The notes under the pieces are model-generated. The model saw only the letters and a program-made list of their open reading frames with translations, was not told the DNA's origin and did no database searches. The position numbers and the translations under genes were made by a program. DNA of 64,000 nucleotides from the NCBI GenBank assembly GCA_022846075.1, contig AP025582.1, positions 186,001 to 250,000 of the forward strand, given 5' to 3'. Of the stretch, positions 1-48,546 are shown one piece after another (within the stretch, counting starts at the first letter, position 1; each line of letters starts with the position of its first letter). The DNA is from Oscillospiraceae bacterium. Its GTDB lineage: Bacteria; Bacillota; Clostridia; Oscillospirales; Oscillospiraceae.

Positions 1-857
1 TAGCGGTGCTTGGCGGCGTCGCTGGGGTTGGAGGGGTCGGGCCTGGACATATAGATCCTGACCCGTCCGCCGCAGCACTGGTAGCTGGGATCAACGTAGT
101 AGCGCATTTCCGTGTCGGCGTCCGGGTGCTGGGCGTAATAAACCAAGGCGTTGGTGGCAATCTGCCCAGCCAGCGCTTGAGGTGAGAGCAGCAGCTTCAC
201 CGGATCAGAGGCTCCTTTTCGGCAAAAGGGGCTGATATAGACGATGGGGACCTTTCGCTCCGGGGCCATCAAAAGCCGCTGGAACCGCTCAAAGCCGCCG
301 GATTCCAGCTTGACCGGCTCCAGGCGGGCGGGCTGGCCGTCAATGGAACAGACCAGCTTGGGGTCTTCGATCAGGAACCGGATGATCTTTGGCACACTGG
401 GGGAGGGGGCGTCCTCACAGGGGCCGATAAAGCCAGGCACGTCCGTATAGGAGAGAACCAGGGAGAGGGTGGCCTTTCCGGGAACGATGCTCTCAAAACC
501 GATCTCTGTGATCCACTTTCGGGGGGCGTAACCGGGCCGGGTCGTCTGGGATTCCACCAGCTGGCAGGCCCAATACTCCTCCTCCGGGGTGGATGCCGGG
601 CGAAAATGCTCCGACTCGCAAAAAAGCGTTTTGGCCCGGTCTTTGGAGAAGATACGCCCTCCATTTTGAAAACGGGTCCACTGGTCGGGACGGGCGGAAA
701 GGATGCCTTTGGGGGCGTAACCTCTGGAGCGGGGCCCGTATTTTCCCAGCATCCAGCACCGGATCTTCTGCACCAGAATCTTGAGCAAATCGTCCCCCGC
801 CACCTTGACGGCAATGTCGAATTTTGTCTTAAAAAACAGGGTCGCATTTAGGTCCAT
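1..857 (-). CDS. Unrecognised protein, 3' end beyond window edge
   Basis: An open frame of 285 codons runs from an ATG at 857 leftwards off the window without a stop. The start is supported by AGGAGGGACATAAAATG and a TATAAT box at 886-891. The protein begins MDLNATLFFKTKFDIAV. It contains two short related stretches, RSRGYAPKG near residue 45 and RPGYAPRKW near residue 113. Later come PIVYISPFCRKGASDP near residue 218 and a Cys pair, QCCGG, near residue 263. No signal peptide or membrane segment is visible in this part. I do not recognise the family. It is divergent in origin from nothing nearby: the next gene upstream is read in the same direction and ends 51 bases away. No function is proposed. 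Confidence 0.75.
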   Translation of the reverse strand, partial: MDLNATLFFKTKFDIAVKVAGDDLLKILVQKIRCWMLGKYGPRSRGYAPKGILSARPDQWTRFQNGGRIFSKDRAKTLFCESEHFRPASTPEEEYWACQLVESQTTRPGYAPRKWITEIGFESIVPGKATLSLVLSYTDVPGFIGPCEDAPSPSVPKIIRFLIEDPKLVCSIDGQPARLEPVKLESGGFERFQRLLMAPERKVPIVYISPFCRKGASDPVKLLLSPQALAGQIATNALVYYAQHPDADTEMRYYVDPSYQCCGGRVRIYMSRPDPSNPSDAAKHR

Positions 858-908
858 TTTATGTCCCTCCTGGCTGTTTTTCCCCATTATAACACAAAAT
901 AATTTGGA

Positions 909-3539
909 TTACCAGGAATTCCCTTGTTTTTCCCCTTCCGCTTTTTCGAAGGCAGTTTTTACGTTTTGGCTGGGCAGGGCCCGGTTATTGGAGCGGAGGA
1001 TGGCGGAGATCTCTCCCTGGGTCTGCTCCAGCTCGGCCCGCAGCTCCAGGGCGGAGACCCGGAGGGAGCCGTGGCCCAGGATGATGAGCTGTTCCGCCCC
1101 GTCGGAGGTGGCCACCCGGACCCGGCGGCGCTCCTGGGAGAGCTGGTAGCTGGCCTTCTCGATATAGGCGTCCGCCGTCTCCGCCTCCTTGGTGTAGACC
1201 ACGTGGATGTTGTGGTATCTGCTCACCGAGCCGGTGCCCTGGGGGACCTTGTAGGCGTCGAAGACCAGGATGACCCGGCTGCCCCGGAAGCCCTGGTAGT
1301 TGCTCAAAAGGTCCATCAAAATCTTCCGGGCGGCGTCCAGGTTTTCCCGGGCCACCGCCTTCAAGTCCTCCCAGGCGAAGATGACGTTGTAGCCGTCCAC
1401 CAGCAGGTATTCCGGCCCGGTGGGCGGGGGGATGAAGCGCTTGCCCTCCGCCGGGGCGGGGCGGGACGGCTTGGGAGGCGGCTGGAAGGCCCGGGGCTTG
1501 ATGGCCCCGTAGGTCTTTTCAAAGATGCCCCGCAACTCCTTGTCCTGCTCCAGGTCCCCGGCGGGGGCGGCGGGGCGGCGGACGGGAGGCTCCGGGGTCG
1601 GGGCCTCCTTCGGGCCGGACAGGTCCAGGGCGGGGAGGTGCATATGCTCCGGCACCTCATTCCAGGGGACGTTGAAGCCAGCGCCGTGGGCGCAGAACAC
1701 CGAGCCGGCGGGGTTTTCCAGGTCCCGCTCCGGGTCGTAGGCCAGCGCCTCCACCACCTCCTCCTGCCGGGGGCGGGGGCGGTACCCGCCGGGGGTCAGG
1801 GAGAGCCGCCCCCGGCCCTTGGTGTAGGCCGCCACCTCCTGGTTGTAATCCCGGAGGGCGGACACCGGGGCGGCCCCGGTGAGGACGGTCTCCTCCCCCA
1901 CGGTGACGGGGGCCTCCGTGTCGCCTCCAAGCCGCTGGAGGTCGGCCAGGGCACGGCCCAGGTGGGCGGTGGGCAGCTCCAGGCGGAAGGCGTACCAGGG
2001 CTCCAGGAGGACGCTCTCGGCCCCCATCAGCCCTTGGCGCACCGCCCGGTAGGTGGCCTGCCGGAAGTCGCCCCCCTCGGTGTGCTTTTCGTGGGCCCTG
2101 CCCGTAACCAGGGTGAGCTTCATGTCGGTGATGGGGGAGCCGGTGAGCACCCCCAGGTGGGGCTTTTCCATCAGATGGGTGAGGATTAGCCGCTGCCAGT
2201 GGCCGTCCAGGGCGTCCTCGGGGCAGATGGAGCCGAATTGGAGGCCGCTGCCCAGGGGAAGGGGCTCTAAGAGGAGATGCACCTCGGCGTAGTGGCGCAG
2301 GGGTTCGAAGTGGCCCACCCCCTCCACCGGGGCGGCGATGGTCTCCAGGTAGACCACGCTGCCGGGGCCGAAGTCCACGGCCAGGGCGAAGCGGTCCAGG
2401 ATGACCCGCTTCAACACCTCCGCCTGGACCGCCCCCATGAGGCGGACGTGGATTTCCCCTAACCGCTCGTTCCACTGGATGTGGAGCTGGGGGTCCTCCT
2501 CCGCCAGCTCCCGGAGTCTTCGTAAGGCGGCGTGGGGGTCGCATCCGTCGGGGAGAATGAGCTGGTAGGAGAGGGCGGGCTCCAGCGCCGGGGCGGCCCA
2601 GGGCTTCTCGACTCCCAATGCCTGGCCGGGGTAGGTGGCGGTAAGGCCGGTGACGGCGCACACCGTCCCCGCCGGGGCCTCCTCCAGGGGGGTGAATTTG
2701 GCCCCGGAGTAAAGCCGGAGCTGGTCGGCCTTCTCCTCGACGCCGGGGAGGACGGACTTCACCCGCAGGGTGCCGCCGGTGATTTTCAGGTGGGTGAGGC
2801 GGGTGCCCTGGGGGTCCCGGGAAATCTTGAACACCCTGGCGGCGAAGGCCTCTGGCCACCGGGGCCGGGGGGCGAGGCGGGTCAAATCGGATAAAAGCTC
2901 GTCCACCCCCTCCACCTTGAGGGCGGAGCCGAAGCGGCAGGGGAAGACCTTCCGCTGGGCGATAAGGCGGCGGAGGGTGGCGTCGGAGAGGGCCTCGGTT
3001 TCCATGTACTCCTCCAACGCGGCCTCGTCGGTGAGGGCGGCCTCCTCCCAGAAGGCGGGCCGGCCCAGGAGGGAGAAGTCCAGGCAGGCGGGGGAGAGGG
3101 CGGCGCGGAGCTTGGTGAGCAGGGCATCCCGGTCCGTGCCCGGCTGGTCCATCTTGTTGAGGAAGAGGAAGGTGGGCACCCCGTGGCGCTCCAGCAGCTT
3201 CCAGAGGGTGAGGGTGTGGCCCTGGGGGCCGTCGGGGCCGGAGACCACCAGCACGGCGCAGTCCAGCACGGCCAGGGCCCGCTCCATCTCGGCGGAGAAG
3301 TCCACGTGGCCGGGGGTGTCCAGCAGGGTGAGGGTCACCCCGTCCAGAGGGAGCACCGCCTGCTTGGAGAAGATGGTGATGCCCCGCTCCCGCTCCTGGG
3401 CGTCGGTGTCCAGGAAGGCATCGGCGTGGTCCACCCGGCCCAGGCGGCGCAGGGCGCCGCCCCGGTAGAGGAGGGCTTCCGATAAGGTGGTTTTGCCGGC
3501 GTCCACGTGGGCGAGGACGCCCAGGGTGAGGTTGTCCAT
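909..3539 (-). CDS. TetM/EF-G-like ribosomal GTPase fused to NYN (Rae1/YacP-like) nuclease domain
   Basis: This is an 876-residue translational GTPase. G motifs are AHVDAGKTT (G1, about residue 10), RERGITI (G2), DTPGHVDF (G3) and NKMD (G4), followed by EF-G-like domains II to V up to about residue 635. A proline-rich linker with the segment ELRGIFEKTYGAIKPR follows. From about residue 708 there is a NYN/PIN-like domain: LLVDGYNVIF, VFDAYK, YTKEAETADAYIEK, ATSDGAEQ and GSLRVSA. These match the YacP/Rae1 family, whose B. subtilis member cuts mRNA in the ribosomal A site. In TetM the domain IV loop that displaces tetracycline reads YSPVS; here the aligned stretch is HEKHT. Classical tetracycline resistance is therefore doubtful. 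A ribosome-directed surveillance or rescue role is inference. Confidence 0.88.
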   Translation of the reverse strand: MDNLTLGVLAHVDAGKTTLSEALLYRGGALRRLGRVDHADAFLDTDAQERERGITIFSKQAVLPLDGVTLTLLDTPGHVDFSAEMERALAVLDCAVLVVSGPDGPQGHTLTLWKLLERHGVPTFLFLNKMDQPGTDRDALLTKLRAALSPACLDFSLLGRPAFWEEAALTDEAALEEYMETEALSDATLRRLIAQRKVFPCRFGSALKVEGVDELLSDLTRLAPRPRWPEAFAARVFKISRDPQGTRLTHLKITGGTLRVKSVLPGVEEKADQLRLYSGAKFTPLEEAPAGTVCAVTGLTATYPGQALGVEKPWAAPALEPALSYQLILPDGCDPHAALRRLRELAEEDPQLHIQWNERLGEIHVRLMGAVQAEVLKRVILDRFALAVDFGPGSVVYLETIAAPVEGVGHFEPLRHYAEVHLLLEPLPLGSGLQFGSICPEDALDGHWQRLILTHLMEKPHLGVLTGSPITDMKLTLVTGRAHEKHTEGGDFRQATYRAVRQGLMGAESVLLEPWYAFRLELPTAHLGRALADLQRLGGDTEAPVTVGEETVLTGAAPVSALRDYNQEVAAYTKGRGRLSLTPGGYRPRPRQEEVVEALAYDPERDLENPAGSVFCAHGAGFNVPWNEVPEHMHLPALDLSGPKEAPTPEPPVRRPAAPAGDLEQDKELRGIFEKTYGAIKPRAFQPPPKPSRPAPAEGKRFIPPPTGPEYLLVDGYNVIFAWEDLKAVARENLDAARKILMDLLSNYQGFRGSRVILVFDAYKVPQGTGSVSRYHNIHVVYTKEAETADAYIEKASYQLSQERRRVRVATSDGAEQLIILGHGSLRVSALELRAELEQTQGEISAILRSNNRALPSQNVKTAFEKAEGEKQGNSW

Positions 3540-3599
3540 GGTGGGGGGTACCTCCTGTGGTGGGATAGCTTTTATTATACCATAAGATTGGCCGCCTTG

Positions 3600-3827
3600 G
3601 GAGGTGGGGAAACGTGGGGGGCTATTCTTTCCAGAAAGAATAGCCCCCTACACCCCCCAAGAAAGCACCAGGGGGAGAGTTTCGACTCTCTCCCCCTGGA
3701 CCCCCTCTCAACGACCAAAGGAGAGGCACCTGCGGGCGCCCCTCCTTTGGAAACCTCCCCGGGTTGTCCACAAGAGCGTGAGAAAACCCCGGCGGCGCAC
3801 TTCGTAGCGCCGCCGGGGTTCGGTTTT
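3600..3827 (+). repeat. Dispersed repeat module A, copy 1
   Basis: The module has three hairpins: GGGGGCTATTCTTTC with its complement, a CAGGGGGAGAG / CTCTCCCCCTG stem, and a terminal AACCCCGGCGGCGC / GCGCCGCCGGGGTT stem at 3785-3820. Between them lies a conserved core, CTCAACGACCAAAGG ... CCTTTGGAAACCTCCCCGG ... TGTCCACAAGA. Close copies lie at 15194-15440 and 31151-31350. Confidence 0.8.
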
Positions 3828-3842
3828 ACGGGGGACGAGGGC

Positions 3843-3931
3843 CGGGCGGCTGATAGCCGCCCCTACATGGAAAACGCGAATCAGGCGCGGCGCAGTGCCA
3901 CGTATTCGTAGGGGCGGATAGTATCCGCCCG
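3843..3931 (+). repeat. Dispersed repeat module B, copy 1
   Basis: Two short palindromes, GGGCGGCTGATAGCCGCCC and GGGCGGATAGTATCCGCCC, with CCTAC and GTAGG next to them, bracket a variable centre of about 45 bases. Other copies are at 9152-9240 (inverted), 15793-15878 and 48448-48546. The ends are imperfect terminal inverted repeats, as in MITE-like elements. It carries no gene. Confidence 0.8.
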
Positions 3932-3959
3932 GTCCCATCTATCTGTACCGCACCTACGT

Positions 3960-4161
3960 AGCGGCAGCGGCGCAAAAAGGACCACCGGTCGCACAGACGC
4001 ACTCGTGCTTATACCCCTTCTTCGCGCAGCAGACCTTCTACAGGGAAGGGAGGCTGTGTTTAGGTTTGCACCAAAGACTTTTCTTTGGGGGTCTGGGGTG
4101 GTGTTTCTTTTCCTCGGGAAAAGAAACATCCCCCAGAACTGCACACGTTTGACGTGCAATC
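3960..4161 (+). repeat. Dispersed repeat module C, copy 1
   Basis: The module begins AGCGGCAGCGGCGC. It contains CACCAAAGACTTTTCTTTGG, then a long hairpin built on GTTTCTTTTCC / GGAAAAGAAAC flanked by CTGGGG and CCCCCAG, and ends in the small hairpin ACGTTTGACGT. The end lies 10 bases from the stop codon of the MarR gene. Copies are at 9258-9459, 15905-16107 and 31524-31797. Confidence 0.8.
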
Positions 4162-4170
4162 AGCCATAGA

Positions 4171-4623
4171 TTATGGCAATCTTATCCCCTCGCTGACCTC
4201 CGGCATCAGCTCGGTGGTGACGATCTGCAGCATCTCGGTGAGCTTTTCCTGCTCCTCCGGGGAAAACCGCTGGCGCATCCGGCCCACCACCGTCTTGACG
4301 TAATCGCTGGAGATGTTGTAGTAGCTCTGGTACTTCTCCGTCACCTCCAGGTGGTACTCCCGCTTGTCCGCCTGGGACTGGACCTTGCGCACGTACCCCT
4401 TTTTGATGAGGCTGTTCACCTTGTAGGCCGCGTTGGGCGGGGAGATGCGCATGAAGGTGGCGAACTCGTTGACGGTGGGGGAGCCAAGGGCCTGGATGGT
4501 CTCCATGGCGAAGGTCTCCACCGTGGTGAGGCTGGCCTCCCGCATCTGGAACCGCTCGAAGATCTCCTGATAAAAATGCAGCTTGAATTTGACGTACACT
4601 TCCTCAAACAGCCTTTCCAGCAT
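4171..4623 (-). CDS. MarR-family regulator, FabT-like, last gene of the fatty-acid cluster
   Basis: A 150-residue winged-helix protein that starts MLERLFEEVYVKFK. This ATG at 4623 is chosen because GGGAGGAACGGCACATG gives a good ribosome site; an ATG 21 codons upstream has none. The DNA-binding region spans roughly residues 50-105 (SPTVNEFATFMRISPPNAAYKVNSLIKKGYV). Streptococcal FabT is a MarR protein of similar length, encoded in a fab cluster, that represses fatty-acid genes when bound to acyl-ACP. Here the gene lies 63 bases downstream of fabZ in the same direction, so a similar role is likely. Its probable target is the palindrome in front of acpP. The MarR fold is clear; the FabT assignment rests on context. 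Confidence 0.8.
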   Translation of the reverse strand: MLERLFEEVYVKFKLHFYQEIFERFQMREASLTTVETFAMETIQALGSPTVNEFATFMRISPPNAAYKVNSLIKKGYVRKVQSQADKREYHLEVTEKYQSYYNISSDYVKTVVGRMRQRFSPEEQEKLTEMLQIVTTELMPEVSEGIRLP

Positions 4624-4686
4624 GTGCCGTTCCTCCCGCCGAATGTCGTTTGCTGTTAGTATAGCACAATTTTGTGTGGGAAACAC

Positions 4687-5127
4687 TCAATTTCCGTCCA
4701 CCAGGGCGAAGGTCATCTCGGCCACGGCGGCGGTCTTGCCGTTCACGAGGGCCTTCCCCTCCCCCATCACCAGGGGGCCTTTTTGGCCAGTGATGGTACA
4801 GGTCATCTCCAGCACGTCGCCGGGGGTGACCTGCTGCTTGAAGGTGGCGTTTTTGACTCCACGGAAGAGGGCCAGCCTGCCCCGGTTCTCCGGCAGGGAC
4901 ATGAGGGCCACCCCTCCCACCTGGGCCATGGCCTCGATGATGAGGACGCCGGGGAGGACGTGCTTTTGGGGGAAGTGGCCGCAGAACCACTGCTCCCCCA
5001 CGCTGACGCACTTGATGCCCGTGGCCCAGGCCCCGGCCTCCCCGTCGGTGATGCGGTCCACCAGGGCGAAGGGGAAGCGGTGGGGCAGGAGGGCGGCGAT
5101 CTCGTTGGAGTTATACTGCAAACCCAT
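4687..5127 (-). CDS. fabZ: 3-hydroxyacyl-ACP dehydratase FabZ
   Basis: A 146-residue hot-dog-fold protein that dehydrates 3-hydroxyacyl-ACP to trans-2-enoyl-ACP in the cytosol. The catalytic histidine lies in PHRFPFALVDRI (about residue 16) and the catalytic glutamate in PGVLIIEAMAQVGG (about residue 62), as in the family. Length is normal. The start lies three bases after the fabF stop, and its ribosome site, GGGAGGGCTGAGGGATG, overlaps the end of fabF, which suggests translational coupling. There is no fabA or fabM in the cluster, so the route to unsaturated fatty acids is not visible here. Confidence 0.95.
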   Translation of the reverse strand: MGLQYNSNEIAALLPHRFPFALVDRITDGEAGAWATGIKCVSVGEQWFCGHFPQKHVLPGVLIIEAMAQVGGVALMSLPENRGRLALFRGVKNATFKQQVTPGDVLEMTCTITGQKGPLVMGEGKALVNGKTAAVAEMTFALVDGN

Positions 5128-5130
5128 CCC

Positions 5131-6375
5131 TCAGCCCTCCCATCTCTTGAAGAGGAGGCAGGCGTTGTGCCCGCCGAAGCCCAGGGAGTTGGAGAGGGCG
5201 TAGTCCACCCGCTGGGTACGGCCCTCGTTCGGGATATAGTCCAGGTCGCAGGCGGGGTCGGGGACCTGGTAGTGGATGGTGGCGGGGAGGTAACCGTCCT
5301 TGAGGGCCATGGCGCAGAACACCGCCTCCACCGCCCCGGCGGCCCCCAGAAGGTGGCCGGTCATGGCCTTGGTGGAGGAGACGGCCATTTCATAGGCGTG
5401 GGGGCCGAACACCGTCTTGATGGCGGCGGTCTCCCCGGCGTCGTTGAGGGCGGTGGAGGTGCCGTGGGCGTTGACGTAGCCCACCGCCTCCGGGGCCACC
5501 CCGGCGTCCGCTAGGGCCTCGGCCATGGCCCGGGCGCCGCCCTCCCCCTCGGGGGCGGGGGCGGTCATGTGGTAGGCGTCGCAGGTGGCGCCATAGCCCA
5601 CCACCTCGGCGTAGATATGGGCGCCCCGGGCCTGGGCGTGCTCCAGGGTCTCCAGCACCAGGATGGCGGCCCCCTCCCCCATGACGAAGCCGGAGCGCTC
5701 GGCATCGAAGGGGATGGAGGCCCGGTCCGGGTCGGTGCCGGCGCACAGGGCCTTCATGGAGGTGAAGCCGCCGATGGCCAGGGCGTTCACCGAGGCCTCG
5801 GTGCCGCCGCAGACCATCACGTCGGCGTAGCCGTCCCGGACAGAGCGGAAGGCGTCCCCCACGGCGTTGCTGCCGCCGGCGCAGGCGGTCACCGGGCAGG
5901 TGCACATGCCCTTGAGGCCGAAGCGGATGGCCACCAGCCCCGCGGCCATGTTGGCGATGATCATGGGGATGAAGAAGGGGGAGACCCGGTCATAGCCCTT
6001 CTCCTCGGCCTTGAGGGTCTCGCCCACGGTGATGTCCATGCCGCCGATGCCGCTGGAAATGACGCAGCCCCAGCGGGTGCGGTCCTCTTCGCCATTTTCG
6101 GGCAGGCCCGCGTCGGCCATGGCCTCCACGGCGGCGGCCATGGCGAACTGGGCGTAGAGGCCCATGCGCTTGGCGTCCTTTTTCTCCATCCACCCCTCGG
6201 GGTCGAAGTCCTTGACCTCCCCCGCCAGGGTGACCTTGCGGCCTGTGGTGTCGTAGCGGGTGATGGGGGCGATGCCGCACACGCCCTGGCGGACGGCCTG
6301 CCAGCTCTCGGCCACGCTGTGGCCCAGGGGGTTCACCGTGCCCATGCCGGTGATGACGACCCGTTTTTTCTCCAT
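5131..6375 (-). CDS. fabF: 3-oxoacyl-ACP synthase II FabF
   Basis: A 414-residue condensing enzyme that extends acyl-ACP with malonyl-ACP. The active-site cysteine is in CPVTACAGGSNAVGDAF (about residue 165). The two histidines are in VNAHGTST and KAMTGHLLGAAG, giving the Cys-His-His triad of KAS I/II enzymes. It starts MEKKRVVITGMGTVNPLG with a strong AAAGGAGG site. It lies 13 bases after fabG in a tightly packed operon. Confidence 0.96.
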   Translation of the reverse strand: MEKKRVVITGMGTVNPLGHSVAESWQAVRQGVCGIAPITRYDTTGRKVTLAGEVKDFDPEGWMEKKDAKRMGLYAQFAMAAAVEAMADAGLPENGEEDRTRWGCVISSGIGGMDITVGETLKAEEKGYDRVSPFFIPMIIANMAAGLVAIRFGLKGMCTCPVTACAGGSNAVGDAFRSVRDGYADVMVCGGTEASVNALAIGGFTSMKALCAGTDPDRASIPFDAERSGFVMGEGAAILVLETLEHAQARGAHIYAEVVGYGATCDAYHMTAPAPEGEGGARAMAEALADAGVAPEAVGYVNAHGTSTALNDAGETAAIKTVFGPHAYEMAVSSTKAMTGHLLGAAGAVEAVFCAMALKDGYLPATIHYQVPDPACDLDYIPNEGRTQRVDYALSNSLGFGGHNACLLFKRWEG

Positions 6376-6388
6376 GGTGTTTCCTCCT

Positions 6389-7117
6389 TTAGACGGCCAT
6401 GCCGCCGTCCACGCAGACGACCTGGCCGGTGATGTAGCCGGCCTCCTCGGAGCACAGGAAGGCCACCAGGTGGGCCACGTCCTCCGGCTGGCCCAGGCGG
6501 GCCATGGGGATGGACTTCAAAAGCTCCTCCCGGGCCTTCTCGGGCAGGGCGGCGGTCATGTCGGTGTCGATAAAGCCGGGGGCCACGGCGTTCACCGTGA
6601 CGCCCCTTGTGGCCAGCTCCTTGGCGGCGGATTTGGTCAGGCCGATGACCCCCGCCTTGCTGGCGGAGTAGTTGGCCTGGCCGGCGTTGCCACGCAGGCC
6701 CACCACCGAGGAGAGATTCACGACGCGGCCCCACCGGGCCTTCATCATGGGGCGGCACACAGCCTTCATGGTGAGGAAGGCCCCCTTCAGGTTGGTGGCG
6801 ATGACGGCGTCGAAGGCGTCCTCCTTCATGGTCATGAGAAGGCCGTCCCGGGTAATGCCGGCGTTGTTCACCAGGATGTCCACCGAGCCAAAGGTACTCA
6901 CGGCGGCGTCCACCAAGGCCTGGGCCCCGGCGGGGTCGGCGGCGTCGGCCTTGACGGCCACGGCGCCGGTGGCAGCGGCAGTCTCTTCCGCGGCGTCGGC
7001 GTTCCCGGCGTACGAGAACACCACGTTGGCGCCCAGGGCACGCAGCTCGGCCACCACGGCCCTGCCGATGCCCCGGCTGCCGCCGGTGACCACGGCGGTC
7101 TTTCCTGCTAAGGTCAT
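6389..7117 (-). CDS. fabG: 3-oxoacyl-ACP reductase FabG
   Basis: A 242-residue short-chain dehydrogenase that reduces 3-oxoacyl-ACP with NADPH. The cofactor motif TGGSRGIGRAV is near residue 12, NNAG near residue 87, and the catalytic Ser and Tyr-x-x-x-Lys are in SSVVGLRGNAGQANYSASKAG. The start MTLAGKTAVV at 7117 overlaps the fabD stop by four bases (ATGA) and matches the usual N-terminus. A longer in-frame extension upstream lies inside fabD and was rejected. Confidence 0.95.
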   Translation of the reverse strand: MTLAGKTAVVTGGSRGIGRAVVAELRALGANVVFSYAGNADAAEETAAATGAVAVKADAADPAGAQALVDAAVSTFGSVDILVNNAGITRDGLLMTMKEDAFDAVIATNLKGAFLTMKAVCRPMMKARWGRVVNLSSVVGLRGNAGQANYSASKAGVIGLTKSAAKELATRGVTVNAVAPGFIDTDMTAALPEKAREELLKSIPMARLGQPEDVAHLVAFLCSEEAGYITGQVVCVDGGMAV

Positions 7118-8049
7118 AGGGCTGCCTCCTTCCAGGCGGTCAAAAATTTCTCCAGGTCTTCCGGCTTTTCCACCGGGAAGCACCGGATATCGGGGCAGGT
7201 CTTGCGGACGAAGCCGGTGAGGGCCTTGCCCGGGCCGATCTCCACCACGGTGTCCACCCTGTACTCAGACAGCTTGCGGATGGTGTCCTCCATGCGCACG
7301 GCGTGGCTCACCTGCTCCTCCAAAAGCCCCTGGATGGTGTCGCCGGGGCCCATCACGTCGCCCAAGCGGTTGAAGAGGACGGGGATTTGCATGGGGCCGA
7401 AGGTGATTTCCCGAAACTTCTCCCGCAGGGCCAGCCCCACGGCGGCCAGCAGGGAGGTGTGGAAGGGTCCGCTGACCTGGAGGGTCATGCACCGCTTGGC
7501 CCCCGCCTCCCCGCACAGGCGGGCGGCCTCCAGCACGGCGGGCTGCACGCCGCCGATGACGGTCTGGCCGGGGCAGTTGAGGTTGCACACCTCCACCACG
7601 CCCAGGCCGGAAGCCTGGGCGCAGCAGGCCCGGATGGCGTCCACGTCCAGGCCCAGCACGGCCACCATGGCGCTCTGGACGCCCAGGGAGGCGGCGGTCA
7701 TGGCCCGGCCCCGGAAGGCGGTGAGGGAGATGGCGGTGTCCGTGTCAAAGACCCCGGCGCAGTGGAGGGCGGAATACTCCCCCAGGCTGAGGCCCGCGGC
7801 GTAGGACGGGGTTACCCCCGCCTCCCGCAGCAGGGCGGTGACCCCCACGGCGAAGGCCGTCATGCAGGGCTGGGTGTACTCGGTCTGGTTCAGGACCCCC
7901 TGGGGGTCGGCAAGGCAGGTCTCCTTCAAATCGAAGTCCACCGGGGCGTCGTCGTAGACCTTGCGGAAGGCGGGGGAGGCGTCATAGAATTCCTGCCCCA
8001 TGCCCACCTTCTGGCTGCCCTGGCCGGCGTAGAGAAAGGCGAGTTTCAT
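7114..8049 (-). CDS. fabD: Malonyl-CoA:ACP transacylase FabD
   Basis: A 311-residue transacylase that loads malonyl groups from CoA onto ACP. It starts MKLAFLYAGQGSQKVGMG. The nucleophilic serine is in GLSLGEYSAL (about residue 92) and the catalytic histidine in SGPFHTSLL (about residue 201). The ATG at 8049 overlaps the fabK stop as ATGA, which fixes the start. Confidence 0.95.
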   Translation of the reverse strand: MKLAFLYAGQGSQKVGMGQEFYDASPAFRKVYDDAPVDFDLKETCLADPQGVLNQTEYTQPCMTAFAVGVTALLREAGVTPSYAAGLSLGEYSALHCAGVFDTDTAISLTAFRGRAMTAASLGVQSAMVAVLGLDVDAIRACCAQASGLGVVEVCNLNCPGQTVIGGVQPAVLEAARLCGEAGAKRCMTLQVSGPFHTSLLAAVGLALREKFREITFGPMQIPVLFNRLGDVMGPGDTIQGLLEEQVSHAVRMEDTIRKLSEYRVDTVVEIGPGKALTGFVRKTCPDIRCFPVEKPEDLEKFLTAWKEAAL

Positions 8050-8981
8050 GCCTCGTTCACCAAACCTTTCTTGCATTCTTGATACCCGGCGTATAGTTCC
8101 TCAAAAATATTACGTAGAGGCTTGATTTCGTGGAGCTGGCCCGCCACCTGGCCGGCCATCAGGCTGCCGGTGTCGGTGTCCCCGTCAAAGACCGCCCGGC
8201 GGAGGGACCCCAGGGTGAGCTTCTCCATCTCGGCCAGGGGAAGGCGGTCCTTTTCCATGCGGACGTACTCCCGGGCCATTTTGTTCTTGAGCACCCGGAC
8301 GGGGGCCCCGGTGGTGCGGCCGGTGACCATGGTGTCGGAGTCCTTGGCCTTCAAAAGGGCCTGCTTATAGTTGTCGTGGATGGGGCACTCGGCGCTGACC
8401 AGCAGGCAGGTGCCGATCTGCACCCCGCAGGCGCCCAGGGCCTCGGCGGCCAAAAGCTGGCGGCCGTCGGCGATGCCCCCGGCGGCGATGACAGGCACGT
8501 CCACCGCGTCCCGCACCTGGGGAACCAGGGCCATGGTGTTCATCTCCCCGATGTGGCCGCCGGACTCGCAGCCCTCGGCGATCACGCCGTCGATGCCGTA
8601 GCGGGTGAGCCGCTGGGCCAGGACGGCGGCGGCCACCACGGGGAAGACCTTCATGCCCGCGTCCTTCCACATGGGGATGTACTTGCCGGGGTTGCCCGCG
8701 CCGGTGGTGACCACCCGGACCCCCTCGTCCACCAGGAGGCGGGCCTGCTCCTCCACCTCGGGGTTCATCAGCATCAAATTGACGCCGAAGGGCTTGTCGG
8801 TGAGTTCCCGGCACTGGCGGATGTGGGAGCGCAGGGTCTCGGTGTCCATGCCGCCGGAGCCGATGAGACCCAAAGCCCCGGCGTTGGAGACGGCGGCGGC
8901 GAAGGCGCCGGTGGCGATATTGGCCATGCCGCCCTGGATGAAGGGGAATTCCGTCCCCAGGATGGTGTTGAGGTTCAGCAT
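8046..8981 (-). CDS. fabK: Enoyl-ACP reductase II (FMN-dependent) FabK
   Basis: A 311-residue FMN-binding TIM-barrel protein of the nitronate monooxygenase / FabK family. It reduces trans-2-enoyl-ACP in the last step of elongation. The N-terminal FMN motif is FIQGGMANIATG, followed by AAVSNAGALGLIGSGG. AEGCESGGHIGE and IAAGGIADGRQLLAAEALGA form the phosphate-binding part. No fabI is visible, so this is probably the enoyl reductase of the pathway; FabK enzymes are typically insensitive to triclosan. A spacer with repeats B2 and C2 separates it from fabH. Confidence 0.93.
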   Translation of the reverse strand: MLNLNTILGTEFPFIQGGMANIATGAFAAAVSNAGALGLIGSGGMDTETLRSHIRQCRELTDKPFGVNLMLMNPEVEEQARLLVDEGVRVVTTGAGNPGKYIPMWKDAGMKVFPVVAAAVLAQRLTRYGIDGVIAEGCESGGHIGEMNTMALVPQVRDAVDVPVIAAGGIADGRQLLAAEALGACGVQIGTCLLVSAECPIHDNYKQALLKAKDSDTMVTGRTTGAPVRVLKNKMAREYVRMEKDRLPLAEMEKLTLGSLRRAVFDGDTDTGSLMAGQVAGQLHEIKPLRNIFEELYAGYQECKKGLVNEA

Positions 8982-9151
8982 TGCGTGGTCCTCCTTTATG
9001 GTTCATGCGAAACAACGTGTATGGGTTCGTTCAACTAAACGGGGGCGGAACCCTCTCAGTCAGCTTCGCTGACAGCTCCCCCGGAGGGGAAGCCGTTGGC
9101 ATTGGCGGGGGCGGTTCCGTTTTACTTAGCTTTTCCTTGTTGATAGGCAGA

Positions 9152-9240
9152 GCGGGCGGATACTATCCGCCCCTACGAATCCGTGGTAGCACATACAGTT
9201 CGGGCTTTCCACGTAGGGGCGGCTATCAGCCGCCCGCCCC
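9152..9240 (-). repeat. Dispersed repeat module B, copy 2 (inverted)
   Basis: GGGCGGATACTATCCGCCC and GGGGCGGCTATCAGCCGCCC bracket a variable centre. The order of the two palindromes is reversed relative to copies 1, 3 and 4, so the module is inverted. Confidence 0.8.
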
Positions 9241-9257
9241 GCCGTCAAGCACATGTC

Positions 9258-9459
9258 AGCGGCAGCGGCGCAAGGGGGACCACGGGTTGACAGACGCGCC
9301 CGTGCTTTTACCCCCGACAACAAGCACAAGACCTTCTACAAAAAAGGAAGGCTGTGCCCAGGTCAGCACCAAAGACTTTTCTTTGGGGGTCTGGGGTGGT
9401 GTTTCTTTTCCTCGGGAAAAGAAACATCCCCCAGAATTGCGCACGTTTGACGTGCAATC
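9258..9459 (+). repeat. Dispersed repeat module C, copy 2
   Basis: Nearly identical to copy 1 from AGCGGCAGCGGCGC through the GTTTCTTTTCC / GGAAAAGAAAC hairpin to CACGTTTGACGTGCAATC. It ends 33 bases from the fabH stop codon. Confidence 0.82.
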
Positions 9460-9491
9460 CGTCAACAATCAAGCGGTACCGCTTGACCAAT

Positions 9492-10439
9492 TCACGCGAA
9501 CTCGATCAGCGCCCCCGCCCAGGTGAGCCCCCCGCCGAACCCGACGCACAGGGCCTTCTTCCCCGGTCCCAGCCGGCCGTCCCGGCACAGCTCGTCCAGC
9601 ACCAGCGGCACGCTGGCCGCCGAGGTGTTGCCGTAGCGGGAGAGATTCTTGTGCACCTTTTCGGTGGGCACGCCGAACTTTTTGACCACCAGATCCACGA
9701 TGCGCTCGTTGGCCTGGTGGAAGACCACCTGGTCCACGTCGTCGATGGCCGCGCCGGTCTTGTCCAGCACCGCCTGGATGCACTTGGGCACCGTCTCCAC
9801 GGCGAACTTGAAGACCGGCTGGCCCTCCATGTAGATCCGGGGTTTTCCCCCGGCCAGCACGCCGGTGACCCCCAGCACCTTGTCGTTGCCCCGCACGCCC
9901 AGGACGGCGGAGATGGAGGGCCACTCGGGGCGGAACTCCACCACCACGGCCCCGGCGGCGTCCCCGAAGAGGACGCAGGTGGAGCGGTCGGTGAAGTCGG
10001 TGAGGCGGCTCAGCACCTCGCCCCCCACCACGATGCCGTAGCGATTGGGGCTGGCGGAGAGGAGGCACTCCATGGTGTGCAGGCCGAAGAGAAAGCCGGA
10101 GCAGGCGGCGTTCAGGTCGAAGCAGACCGTGTCCTCGGCCAGGCCCAGCTCCCGCTGGAGCAGGCAGGCCGCCGCCGGGGAGAACTGGTCGGCGCACACG
10201 GTGCACACGACGCAGGCCCCCACTTCGGCGGGGTCCACCCCCGCCGCCTCCAAAGCGGCCTTGGCCGCCCCGGTACACAGGTCCAGGTGGCTCTCGGCCA
10301 CGCAGTGGTGCCGCTCTTTGATGCCGGTGCGGCTGGTGATCCACTCGTCGCTGGTGTCCACCATGCGGCTCAAATCGTCGTTGGTGGTCACCTTGGCGGG
10401 CACACGGCTGCCGGTGCCCCGTATTTTGATGCCGCTCAC
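9492..10439 (-). CDS. fabH: 3-oxoacyl-ACP synthase III FabH
   Basis: A 315-residue initiating condensing enzyme that joins an acyl-CoA primer to malonyl-ACP. The triad is Cys in DLNAACSGFLFGL (about residue 108), His in VVFHQANERI and Asn in RYGNTSAAS. The start is a GTG at 10439 (MSGIKIRGTG) overlapping the accA stop (GTGA). A much longer upstream extension in the same frame runs antisense to the sense of accA's product and is not coding. Confidence 0.93.
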   Translation of the reverse strand: MSGIKIRGTGSRVPAKVTTNDDLSRMVDTSDEWITSRTGIKERHHCVAESHLDLCTGAAKAALEAAGVDPAEVGACVVCTVCADQFSPAAACLLQRELGLAEDTVCFDLNAACSGFLFGLHTMECLLSASPNRYGIVVGGEVLSRLTDFTDRSTCVLFGDAAGAVVVEFRPEWPSISAVLGVRGNDKVLGVTGVLAGGKPRIYMEGQPVFKFAVETVPKCIQAVLDKTGAAIDDVDQVVFHQANERIVDLVVKKFGVPTEKVHKNLSRYGNTSAASVPLVLDELCRDGRLGPGKKALCVGFGGGLTWAGALIEFA

Positions 10440-15193: not shown

Positions 15194-15440
15194 GGCCACC
15201 TTAGGGAAGGTGGGAAGGCCTGGGGGACCATCTTTTCCACGTGGAAAAGATGGCACCCCCAGACCCCCCAGAAAAGACGCCAGGGGGAGAGAGTTCCGAC
15301 TCTCTCTCCCCCTGGACCTCCACTCTCAACGGCCAAAGGAGGGGGACTGAGGTCCCCCTCGCTTTGGAAACCTCCCCGGGCTGTCCACAAGAGGGTGGGA
15401 TGACCCCGGCGGCTTACTTTGTAACGCCGCCGGGGTTCGG
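15194..15440 (+). repeat. Dispersed repeat module A, copy 2
   Basis: It begins directly after the acetyltransferase stop codon. It contains hairpin CCATCTTTTCCACGTGGAAAAGATGG, a GGGGGAGAGAG stem, the conserved CAAAGG ... CTTTGGAAACCTCCCCGGGCTGTCCACAAGA core and the terminal ACCCCGGCGGC / GCCGCCGGGGT stem (15403-15436). The terminal stem also encodes the C-terminus of the HTH protein read on the other strand. Confidence 0.8.
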
Positions 15441-15674
15441 CTGTGGGGGAGCGTCCGCAATCAGGGAGTCGGAGGATGTGTGGAAAACTCTGGATAGTGC
15501 AAGCAAATCTTTTGCGTAGACCTTGCAAACCTGGTCTTCAATGCGCTTCAAGCGGCGGGGGGATATGATAAAGCCGTTTTCGCGCAGAAGGCGGGAGAGG
15601 GCGGCGTAGGAGAGCCCTGCTTGGGTGCGGTAATAGTGAAGGTTGATGCCGGTAATGTTTTTGGGGCCTGTCAT
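15414..15674 (-). CDS. Small XRE-like helix-turn-helix protein
   Basis: An 86-residue protein starting MTGPKNITGINLHYYRTQAG. The ATG at 15674 is preceded by AGAGGTAATTAAA. The helix-turn-helix spans about residues 9-65, with LSYAALSRLLRENGF, then SPRRLKRIEDQVCKVYAKDLLALSRVF, given here as SPRRLKRIEDQV and KDLLALSRVF. It resembles phage-type XRE regulators. The last residues, PPQPNPGGVTK, are encoded by the terminal stem of repeat module A2, so the gene's end seems to have been set by the repeat. A palindrome upstream may be its own operator. Confidence 0.7.
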   Translation of the reverse strand: MTGPKNITGINLHYYRTQAGLSYAALSRLLRENGFIISPRRLKRIEDQVCKVYAKDLLALSRVFHTSSDSLIADAPPQPNPGGVTK

Positions 15675-15741: not shown

Positions 15742-15792
15742 CAATACAGGCCACAGATAGTATGTTCGAAACATTGCCCCATAGGGGCACGG

Positions 15793-15878
15793 GGCGGGCG
15801 GCTGATAGCCGCCCCTACAAGGAAAATCCGAATCATGGGCGGCTCCCCATATCTGTAGGGGCGGATAGCATCCGCCCG
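15793..15878 (+). repeat. Dispersed repeat module B, copy 3
   Basis: GGGCGGCTGATAGCCGCCC and GGGCGGATAGCATCCGCCC bracket a centre that includes AAGGAAAATCCGAATCA, close to copy 1. Confidence 0.8.
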
Positions 15879-15904
15879 AACCCACCCATCCATCAAGAAC
15901 ACGT

Positions 15905-16107
15905 CAGCGGCAGCGGCGCAAGAGGGACCACGGGTTGACAGACGCACCCGTGCTTGTACCCCTATCAACGGGCACAAGACCTTCTACTGGAAAGGGAGGC
16001 TGTGTCCAGGTCAGCACCAAAGACCTTTCTTTGGGGGTCTGGGGCGGCGTTTCTTTTCCTCGGGAAAAGAAACGTCCCCCAGATTTACGCACGTCTCGAC
16101 GTGCAAG
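15905..16107 (+). repeat. Dispersed repeat module C, copy 3
   Basis: Matches copies 1 and 2 along its length. The last hairpin reads GCACGTCTCGACGTGC, differing in the loop from the GCACGTTTGACGTGC form while keeping the stem. It lies just beyond the pnp terminator. Confidence 0.8.
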
Positions 16108-31150: not shown

Positions 31151-31350
31151 TAACACCTTTCCGAAGGTGGGGGAGCCGTGGGGGGCTATTCTTTCTAAAA
31201 AGAACAGCCTCCATACCCCCCCGAGACCCCCTCTCTCAACGACCAAAGAGGGACCCCCGCAGGTGCCCCTCCTTTGGAAACCTCCCCGAGCTGTCCACAA
31301 GAACGTAATAAAACCCCGGGGCCGCACTTCGTAGCGGCCCCGGGGTTCGT
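31151..31350 (+). repeat. Dispersed repeat module A, copy 3 (internal hairpin missing)
   Basis: It begins immediately after the aminopeptidase stop. It keeps the GGGGGCTATTCTTTC hairpin, the CAACGACCAAAG ... CCTTTGGAAACCTCCCCGAGCTGTCCACAAGA core and the terminal AACCCCGGGGCCGC stem. It lacks the CAGGGGGAGAG / CTCTCCCCCTG stem of copies 1 and 2. Confidence 0.78.
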
Positions 31351-31351
31351 T

Positions 31352-31497
31352 TCTAAAGGCTTCCCCTGGGGGAAGCTGTCGAGCGTAGCGAGACGGATGA
31401 GGGGAACTTATCGCTTTTGTAGAGCCTTTCCCATTATCCTCAGTTCCCCTCATCCGTCAGCCCTTCGGGCTGCCACCTTCCCCCAAGGGGAAGGCTA
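31352..31497. repeat. Dispersed repeat module D, copy 1
   Basis: Near-palindromic element with outer arms CTTCCCCTGGGGGAAG and CTTCCCCCAAGGGGAAGG and inner arms GACGGATGAGGGGAAC and GTTCCCCTCATCCGTC. A related copy is at 51105-51270. Confidence 0.75.
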
Positions 31498-48407: not shown

Positions 48408-48447
48408 GTGGGAATGTGGGGGGATGCGGCCCTGCGGGGGACGAGGG

Positions 48448-48546
48448 GCGGGCGGCTGATAGCCGCCCCTACAGATACGGCCTGCCGCGCGGGTACGCGA
48501 GTAATTTGTGCGTCCCATGTAGGGGCGGATATTATCCGCCCGCCCC
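48448..48546 (+). repeat. Dispersed repeat module B, copy 4
   Basis: GGGCGGCTGATAGCCGCCC and GGGCGGATATTATCCGCCC bracket a centre unlike the other copies. It stands alone, without A or C modules. Confidence 0.78.

Follow-up and report, generated by a model that had tools for sequence, protein, structure and literature searches.

A Rae1/YacP-type nuclease fused to an EF-G/TetM-like GTPase stands in place of stand-alone Rae1 in many sampled Clostridia

The stretch of DNA analysed here (hereafter the window) comprises 64,000 nucleotides of an Oscillospiraceae bacterium (contig AP025582.1, positions 186,001 to 250,000). On its minus strand, the gene at 909-3539 encodes, in a single frame, a GTPase of the EF-G/TetM type followed by a C-terminal extension, a disordered linker and an NYN nuclease domain of the YacP/Rae1 type. 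We have confirmed this arrangement and found that genomes with the fusion, with few exceptions, have it instead of a stand-alone Rae1. The fusion itself has been in print since 2015: according to the accessible part of the article, Tet proteins of ten Clostridiales species carry a YacP-like NYN domain, and RNase-based resistance was guessed at for them (Atkinson 2015; PMC4342817). Judged by the published description, the window protein and these Tet-NYN proteins very probably form the same protein group, since both join a Tet/EF-G-like GTPase and a YacP-like NYN domain in one frame in Clostridia, although the latter were treated in a few sentences and as resistance proteins. No later account of the fusion was found in a literature search of partial coverage; Leroy 2017 and Condon 2018 lay outside it and may mention the fusion. 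The new findings are the distribution of the fusion, the replacement of stand-alone Rae1, the single clade of the fused proteins and the conservation of the domain IV tips.

The replacement was deduced from evenly drawn genome samples, which are not full counts. In the sample of 391 genomes of the window's class, NYN_YacP was matched in 249 genomes (over the cut-off in 248) and the GTPase family (E 1e-160) in 157. GTPase frame lengths were known for 148 of these 157 genomes. Judged by frame length, at least 124 genomes have a fused-length GTPase (frame >840 aa), 21 an unfused-length one (645-700 aa) and three an intermediate or partial one (G081, G224, G341); two of the 124 (G070, G221) have one stop inside the matched stretch. 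Since NYN_YacP is present in all 124 fused-length genomes, and in 122 of them as a single copy over the cut-off, the fusion replaces stand-alone Rae1. Two NYN_YacP matches were found in five of the 124 genomes, three of the second matches being under the cut-off (~21 bits); G330 has a true second copy, linked to rlmB, and G133 (61% complete) has two fused copies. In the phylum sample of 149 genomes, NYN_YacP was found in 86, once each. It lies in a fused-length frame in 10, which are the same 10 genomes that have a fused-length GTPase, and seven of them are outside the class.

The neighbourhood of the nuclease gene in the window differs from that of most stand-alone genes. In 21 of 27 cases (flanks mostly ~1.5 kb), the gene directly before stand-alone yacP encodes a SpoU-family rRNA methylase (rlmB type), and the same yacO-rae1 neighbourhood is reported for B. 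subtilis in the available part of PMC6613710. The window's copy, in contrast, is fused to the GTPase and located at 186.9-189.5 kb, ~507 kb from the rlmB-type gene at 696.5 kb on the same contig; no other NYN_YacP was found in the window's genome. Stand-alone yacP genes without rlmB in their short flanks were seen in four loci of family code f26 (L075, L087, L088, L094), a family which has fused genes too.

The frame of the window's gene is intact and contains no internal stops. The initial annotation had described one frame joining an EF-G/TetM-like GTPase to an NYN domain, and both the 876-aa product and the Pfam matches agree with this. A sequencing artefact splitting the frame at the linker was ruled out because the same unbroken fusion is carried by 56 of the 65 loci fetched from named genome contigs. 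These 56 loci and the window's own form the alignment of intact fusions (57 rows), from which five loci with a frame cut by a contig end (L025, L027, L040, L051, L064), an unfused locus (L062) and a locus coding for another protein (L069) were excluded. L055 and L058, two relatives from metagenome-derived assemblies, have an interrupted frame or one without a start; they too were left out and do not enter the intact-fusion counts. The same fusion occurs in Oscillospiraceae, Lachnospiraceae and other Clostridia records. The closest named relatives are Oscillospiraceae (Pseudoflavonifractor-type), with a GTPase part up to 79% identical.

The nuclease part scored 162.9 bits against the NYN_YacP cut-off of 24.6 bits and matched YacP structures (2.7e-28 to 5mq9); the fold comparison of the predicted model barely tests this part. 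All three NYN motifs quoted in the initial annotation are present, and the conservation of the acidic residues, on which that annotation had made its reading depend, was found to be complete. D715, D761, D790 and D813 do not vary among the 57 alignment rows, and in a wider set all four were present in each of the 63 fused and 27 stand-alone NYN domains compared. In the sequence alignment, D715 and D790 correspond to D7 and D81 of YacP, which we take to be the mutated catalytic residues of Rae1. On the GTPase side, His-78 of the DTPGH motif is kept in 57 of 57 rows. The stretch between the two parts (equivalent to aa 635-708) varies from 64 to 118 aa in the 57 rows, with the motif ELxxIF..T in 53 of them, and the predicted local distance difference test score (pLDDT) of the model is below 50 at all residues but one of aa 642-707, as expected for a disordered linker. 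By eye, a possible likeness between the helix in the linker and the C-terminal helix of TetM was considered. The coordinates of all features are listed in Table 1.

Table 1 Features of the fusion gene and repeat copies in the window
Feature	Coordinates	Strand	Remarks
Whole fusion gene	909-3539	minus	ATG at 3539, stop 909-911, 876 aa
GTP-binding domain, aa 4-224	2868-3530	minus	Pfam GTP_EFTU 1.4e-47; GTPase motifs including His-78 of DTPGH
Domain II, aa 232-304	2628-2846	minus	Pfam EF-G_D2 27.4 bits (cut-off 27)
Domain III, aa 341-391	2367-2519	minus	Pfam EFG_III 22.5 bits, below cut-off 27; predicted model aligns with EF-G/TetM here
Domain IV, aa 394-507	2019-2360	minus	Pfam EFG_IV 1.6e-14
Domain IV tip loop I, aa 407-419, GVGHFEPLRHYAE	2283-2321	minus	Contains the best-conserved 13-aa window of the GTPase (77 family members)
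Domain IV tip loop III, aa 480-493, GRAHEKHTEGGDFR	2061-2102	minus	Occupies the place of TetM YSPVS; Lys-485 in 77/77
Domain V, aa 510-592	1764-2012	minus	Pfam EFG_C 1.8e-14
C-terminal extension, aa 593-634, SxFCxHG...W...MH	1638-1763	minus	Ordered in predicted model; present in unfused relatives too
Linker, aa 635-711	1407-1637	minus	Recurrent helix-like ELxxIF..T motif
YacP/Rae1-type NYN nuclease domain, aa 712-866	942-1406	minus	Pfam NYN_YacP 8.7e-48; D715, D761, D790, D813
AGGAGG ribosome-binding site before ATG	3551-3556	minus	By eye from the sequence
Dispersed repeat copies	3718-3891, 3935-4148, 9233-9446, 15335-15445, 15784-15843, 15881-16094, 31245-31355, 48438-48497		

The strongest constraint on the GTPase was found at the tips of domain IV. 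In a set of 77 family members (60 fused and 17 unfused), the twelve best-conserved of 627 windows of 13 aa start at positions 405-410 or 485-491, that is, at the tips GHFEPLRHYAEVH and HTEGGDFRQATYR, which were not among the peptides used for fetching the 65 loci. The tip windows reached 0.968 and 0.948, compared with 0.925 and 0.895 for the GTP-binding motifs. In the control with 29 EF-Gs of the class (29 of 30 EF-G loci), conservation is highest in the G-domain motifs, and the two tips come at ranks 204 and 36 of 684. EF-G is better conserved overall (mean 0.813 vs 0.647 for the family) and, therefore, only the rank order within each family was compared. The wrong-strand frame EFG_L003 was disregarded in the loop alignment. 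The replacement of the TetM loop YSPVS by HEKHT, pointed out in the initial annotation, proved correct: HEKHT occupies aa 483-487, and the position of TetM Pro-509 is taken by Lys-485 in 77 of 77 family members. His-483, found in 74 of 77, lies at the position of the EF-G tip histidine. In the accessible portion of a review, Pro-509 is placed in the tetracycline site (PMC8161019). Because the tips are the most conserved parts, Pro-509 is replaced throughout and the histidine is of the EF-G type, we conclude that the family is adapted to a feature of the A site, though in another way than TetM. In the divergent fused member L143 (G001), both tips deviate from the usual sequence and read AHFEPIRHYAE and KHTEPPDFN.

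The fusion shares the five-domain EF-G-like fold with TetM and TetO, which are its best solved sequence matches, but differs from them by the KHT-type loop in place of the drug-facing YSPVS, another loop I, its own C-terminal extension and the added NYN domain. With EF-G and EF-G2 it has in common the fold, the GTPase motifs and the tip histidine in loop III; however, it scores 222.6 bits against the EF-G cut-off of 659.4 bits, and the genome's own EF-G is encoded elsewhere. With Rae1/YacP of B. subtilis and relatives it shares the NYN_YacP domain and the same acidic residues.

The fused GTPases form one clade when Tet-type proteins are used as the outgroup. Its Shimodaira-Hasegawa-like approximate likelihood ratio test (SH-aLRT) value was 99 in a quick 82-row tree, and its support was 99/99 in a careful tree whose 42 rows included 22 of the 60 fused and 15 of the 17 unfused members. 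The unfused relatives group beside this clade with weaker support (90; 82/63); inner support is weak and branches are long in these trees. In the NYN tree, from which six fused rows with long branches and two stand-alone rows were omitted, a single clade of the fused NYN domains was not rejected (p 0.306). As the unfused proteins end just after the common C-terminal extension (SxFC..G...W...MH), the linker and the NYN domain were either added behind a complete GTPase or lost there. An unfused relative is encoded by megaplasmids of Ligilactobacillus salivarius, among them pMP118 of strain UCC118 (L166, 5986-7920), where it is annotated as TetM/TetW/TetO/TetS family; it has nearly the family loop I, the extension and a variant loop III. 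The parts of the L. salivarius literature that were accessible contained no statement on whether this relative gives resistance. Two loci on viral contigs have unfused 726-aa frames at the contig starts, perhaps in host flank.

We tentatively favour the view that the fusion is a resident, non-mobile-looking Rae1 (YacP)-type mRNA endonuclease which is carried by its own EF-G/TetM-like GTPase and cuts at stalled ribosomes. Rae1 has been described as an A-site endonuclease and proposed to enter stalled ribosomes (PMC6613710, PMC10100781; both available in part). The GTPase in its GTP form would dock at the factor site, and domain IV would enter the A site left empty by stalling. After GTP hydrolysis domain IV would withdraw and the NYN domain on its long flexible linker, now beside that ribosome, could enter the A site or reach the mRNA at the entry channel and cut it. 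The cut mRNA would decay and the ribosome would pass to ordinary rescue. The GTPase would thus act as a sensor, restricting a hazardous nuclease to ribosomes whose A site has long been vacant. The initial annotation had suggested a GTPase delivering an mRNA nuclease to stalled ribosomes. Of this, the real fusion, the conserved acidic residues and the unlikelihood of drug displacement are supported, and the delivery step is what we infer.

Several observations weigh against this proposal. Since domain IV and Rae1 are each expected to use the A site, where they could hardly be at the same time, a sequential action is favoured but has to be assumed. NYN_YacP is absent from 142 of the 391 class genomes, so that the gene is dispensable, and only 8 of 18 sampled genomes of the window's own order, the window's included, have it; all eight have fused-length GTPase frames. 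No widely conserved neighbour gene was found among 37 loci, the neighbour clusters present in at least five of them reaching eight loci at most. The near-invariant tips are common to the unfused relatives, and what constrains them may therefore be unrelated to the nuclease. Each part can do without the other: in the 21 genomes with unfused-length GTPase frames, on which these counts rest, NYN_YacP was found in 14 and not in the other seven, and it also occurs in 100 of the 234 genomes without the GTPase (E 1e-160). The p value of the difference between 14/21 and 100/234 is 0.04 when kinship is not corrected for, and one family code, f44, accounts for 10 of the 14 genomes. As the family also exists unfused, with seven of 21 such genomes devoid of NYN_YacP, the GTPase probably has a function independent of the nuclease. 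In G243 and G262, an unfused GTPase and a fusion-type NYN are encoded by separate genes, with no rlmB in the fetched flanks; tethering is therefore not always kept or came later. These genomes may represent either fission or a pre-fusion state, between which the NYN tree does not decide.

The occurrence of each part without the other makes two independent jobs in one chain the main and serious rival, which we consider somewhat doubtful. The GTPase would be a factor similar to EF-G that counters stalling or drives translocation, the NYN domain would be an ordinary Rae1, and the fusion would only fix their ratio or keep Rae1 near ribosomes without any gating. The long disordered linker, the histidine kept in loop III at the position of the EF-G tip histidine and the constrained tips of the unfused relatives are all in agreement with this. 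On the other hand, the fusion is kept in at least 124 of the 391 genomes with almost no separate copy beside it, and the single clade of fused GTPases also counts against this rival.

A role in ribosome assembly or in rRNA or tRNA processing is improbable. The GTPase would bind pre-ribosomes, as has been proposed for BipA, and the NYN domain would trim rRNA or tRNA. A maturation of rRNA/tRNA proposed for NYN domains is cited in the accessible text of Atkinson 2015 (PMC4342817), and the position of stand-alone yacP directly after the rRNA methylase gene would fit such a function. However, B. subtilis Rae1 is a translation-dependent endonuclease which destabilises mRNAs, as stated in the available parts of PMC10100781 and PMC6613710, and the strongest constraint falls on the domain IV tips.

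The suggestion of Atkinson 2015 (PMC4342817, in its accessible part), namely an antibiotic-resistance protein of the ribosome-protection type to which an RNase has been added, is the least probable of the alternatives: tet_protect is the best family model (371.8 bits, vs 222.6 for EF-G) and some relatives are publicly annotated as TetM/TetW/TetO/TetS family, but the tet_protect cut-off of 775 bits is missed by far, the drug-site proline (PMC8161019) is Lys in every family member, the distribution is clade-like, three genomes (G026, G035, G048) hold a canonical-length Tet frame beside the fused gene, and only two of 1135 matching plasmid records (12 of which were itemised) cover at least 80% of the query. 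These two, a 518-kb Monoglobus and a 252-kb Agathobacter rectalis plasmid, were both typed as non-mobilizable. Because of the missed cut-off and the replaced proline, tetracycline displacement is unlikely to be the role of the fusion, as the initial annotation had supposed. Genes annotated as TetM/TetW/TetO/TetS family in gut Clostridia may thus not be resistance genes, which affects resistance-gene counts. A search of a defence library gave no match.

If the fusion is a nuclease licensed at stalled ribosomes, it could belong to a stalled-ribosome quality-control device of many Clostridia, an extension which we regard as rather unlikely at present. The tips GHFEPLRHYAE and KHTEGGDFR would test the A site and GTP hydrolysis would license the tethered Rae1, the unfused GTPase and stand-alone Rae1 of the 14 genomes mentioned above being its two-gene form. 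To our knowledge, how Rae1 finds the right ribosomes is unsettled. In nearly a third of the class genomes sampled (122/391), the sole Rae1 is naturally fused to a GTPase of a kind that enters the A site, so that a single purified protein would suffice to test this question. For species of Clostridia and Negativicutes, an extra protection 2 nt upstream was reported on stalled ribosomes and additional cofactors were suspected (PMC10234816, accessible part); that this GTPase factor causes the extra footprint is a guess.

Upstream of the fusion gene, TATAAT was seen by eye at 3574-3579, and a consensus scan found no complete promoter there. Rfam gave no match at gathering scores over window positions 1-10000. 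Behind the fusion, an RNA methyltransferase-like gene (by eye) was found in 8 of the 37 loci on either strand, 48 bases behind in L043. In the window, fatty-acid synthesis genes lie on the same strand ~630 bp upstream of the fusion (4171-8981); by eye they encode FabZ, FabF, FabG, FabD and FabK behind a MarR-like regulator. The dispersed repeats of the window belong to three families of 214, 111 and 60 nt, with copies 68-88% like the reference, and one set of them is located just upstream of the fusion gene.
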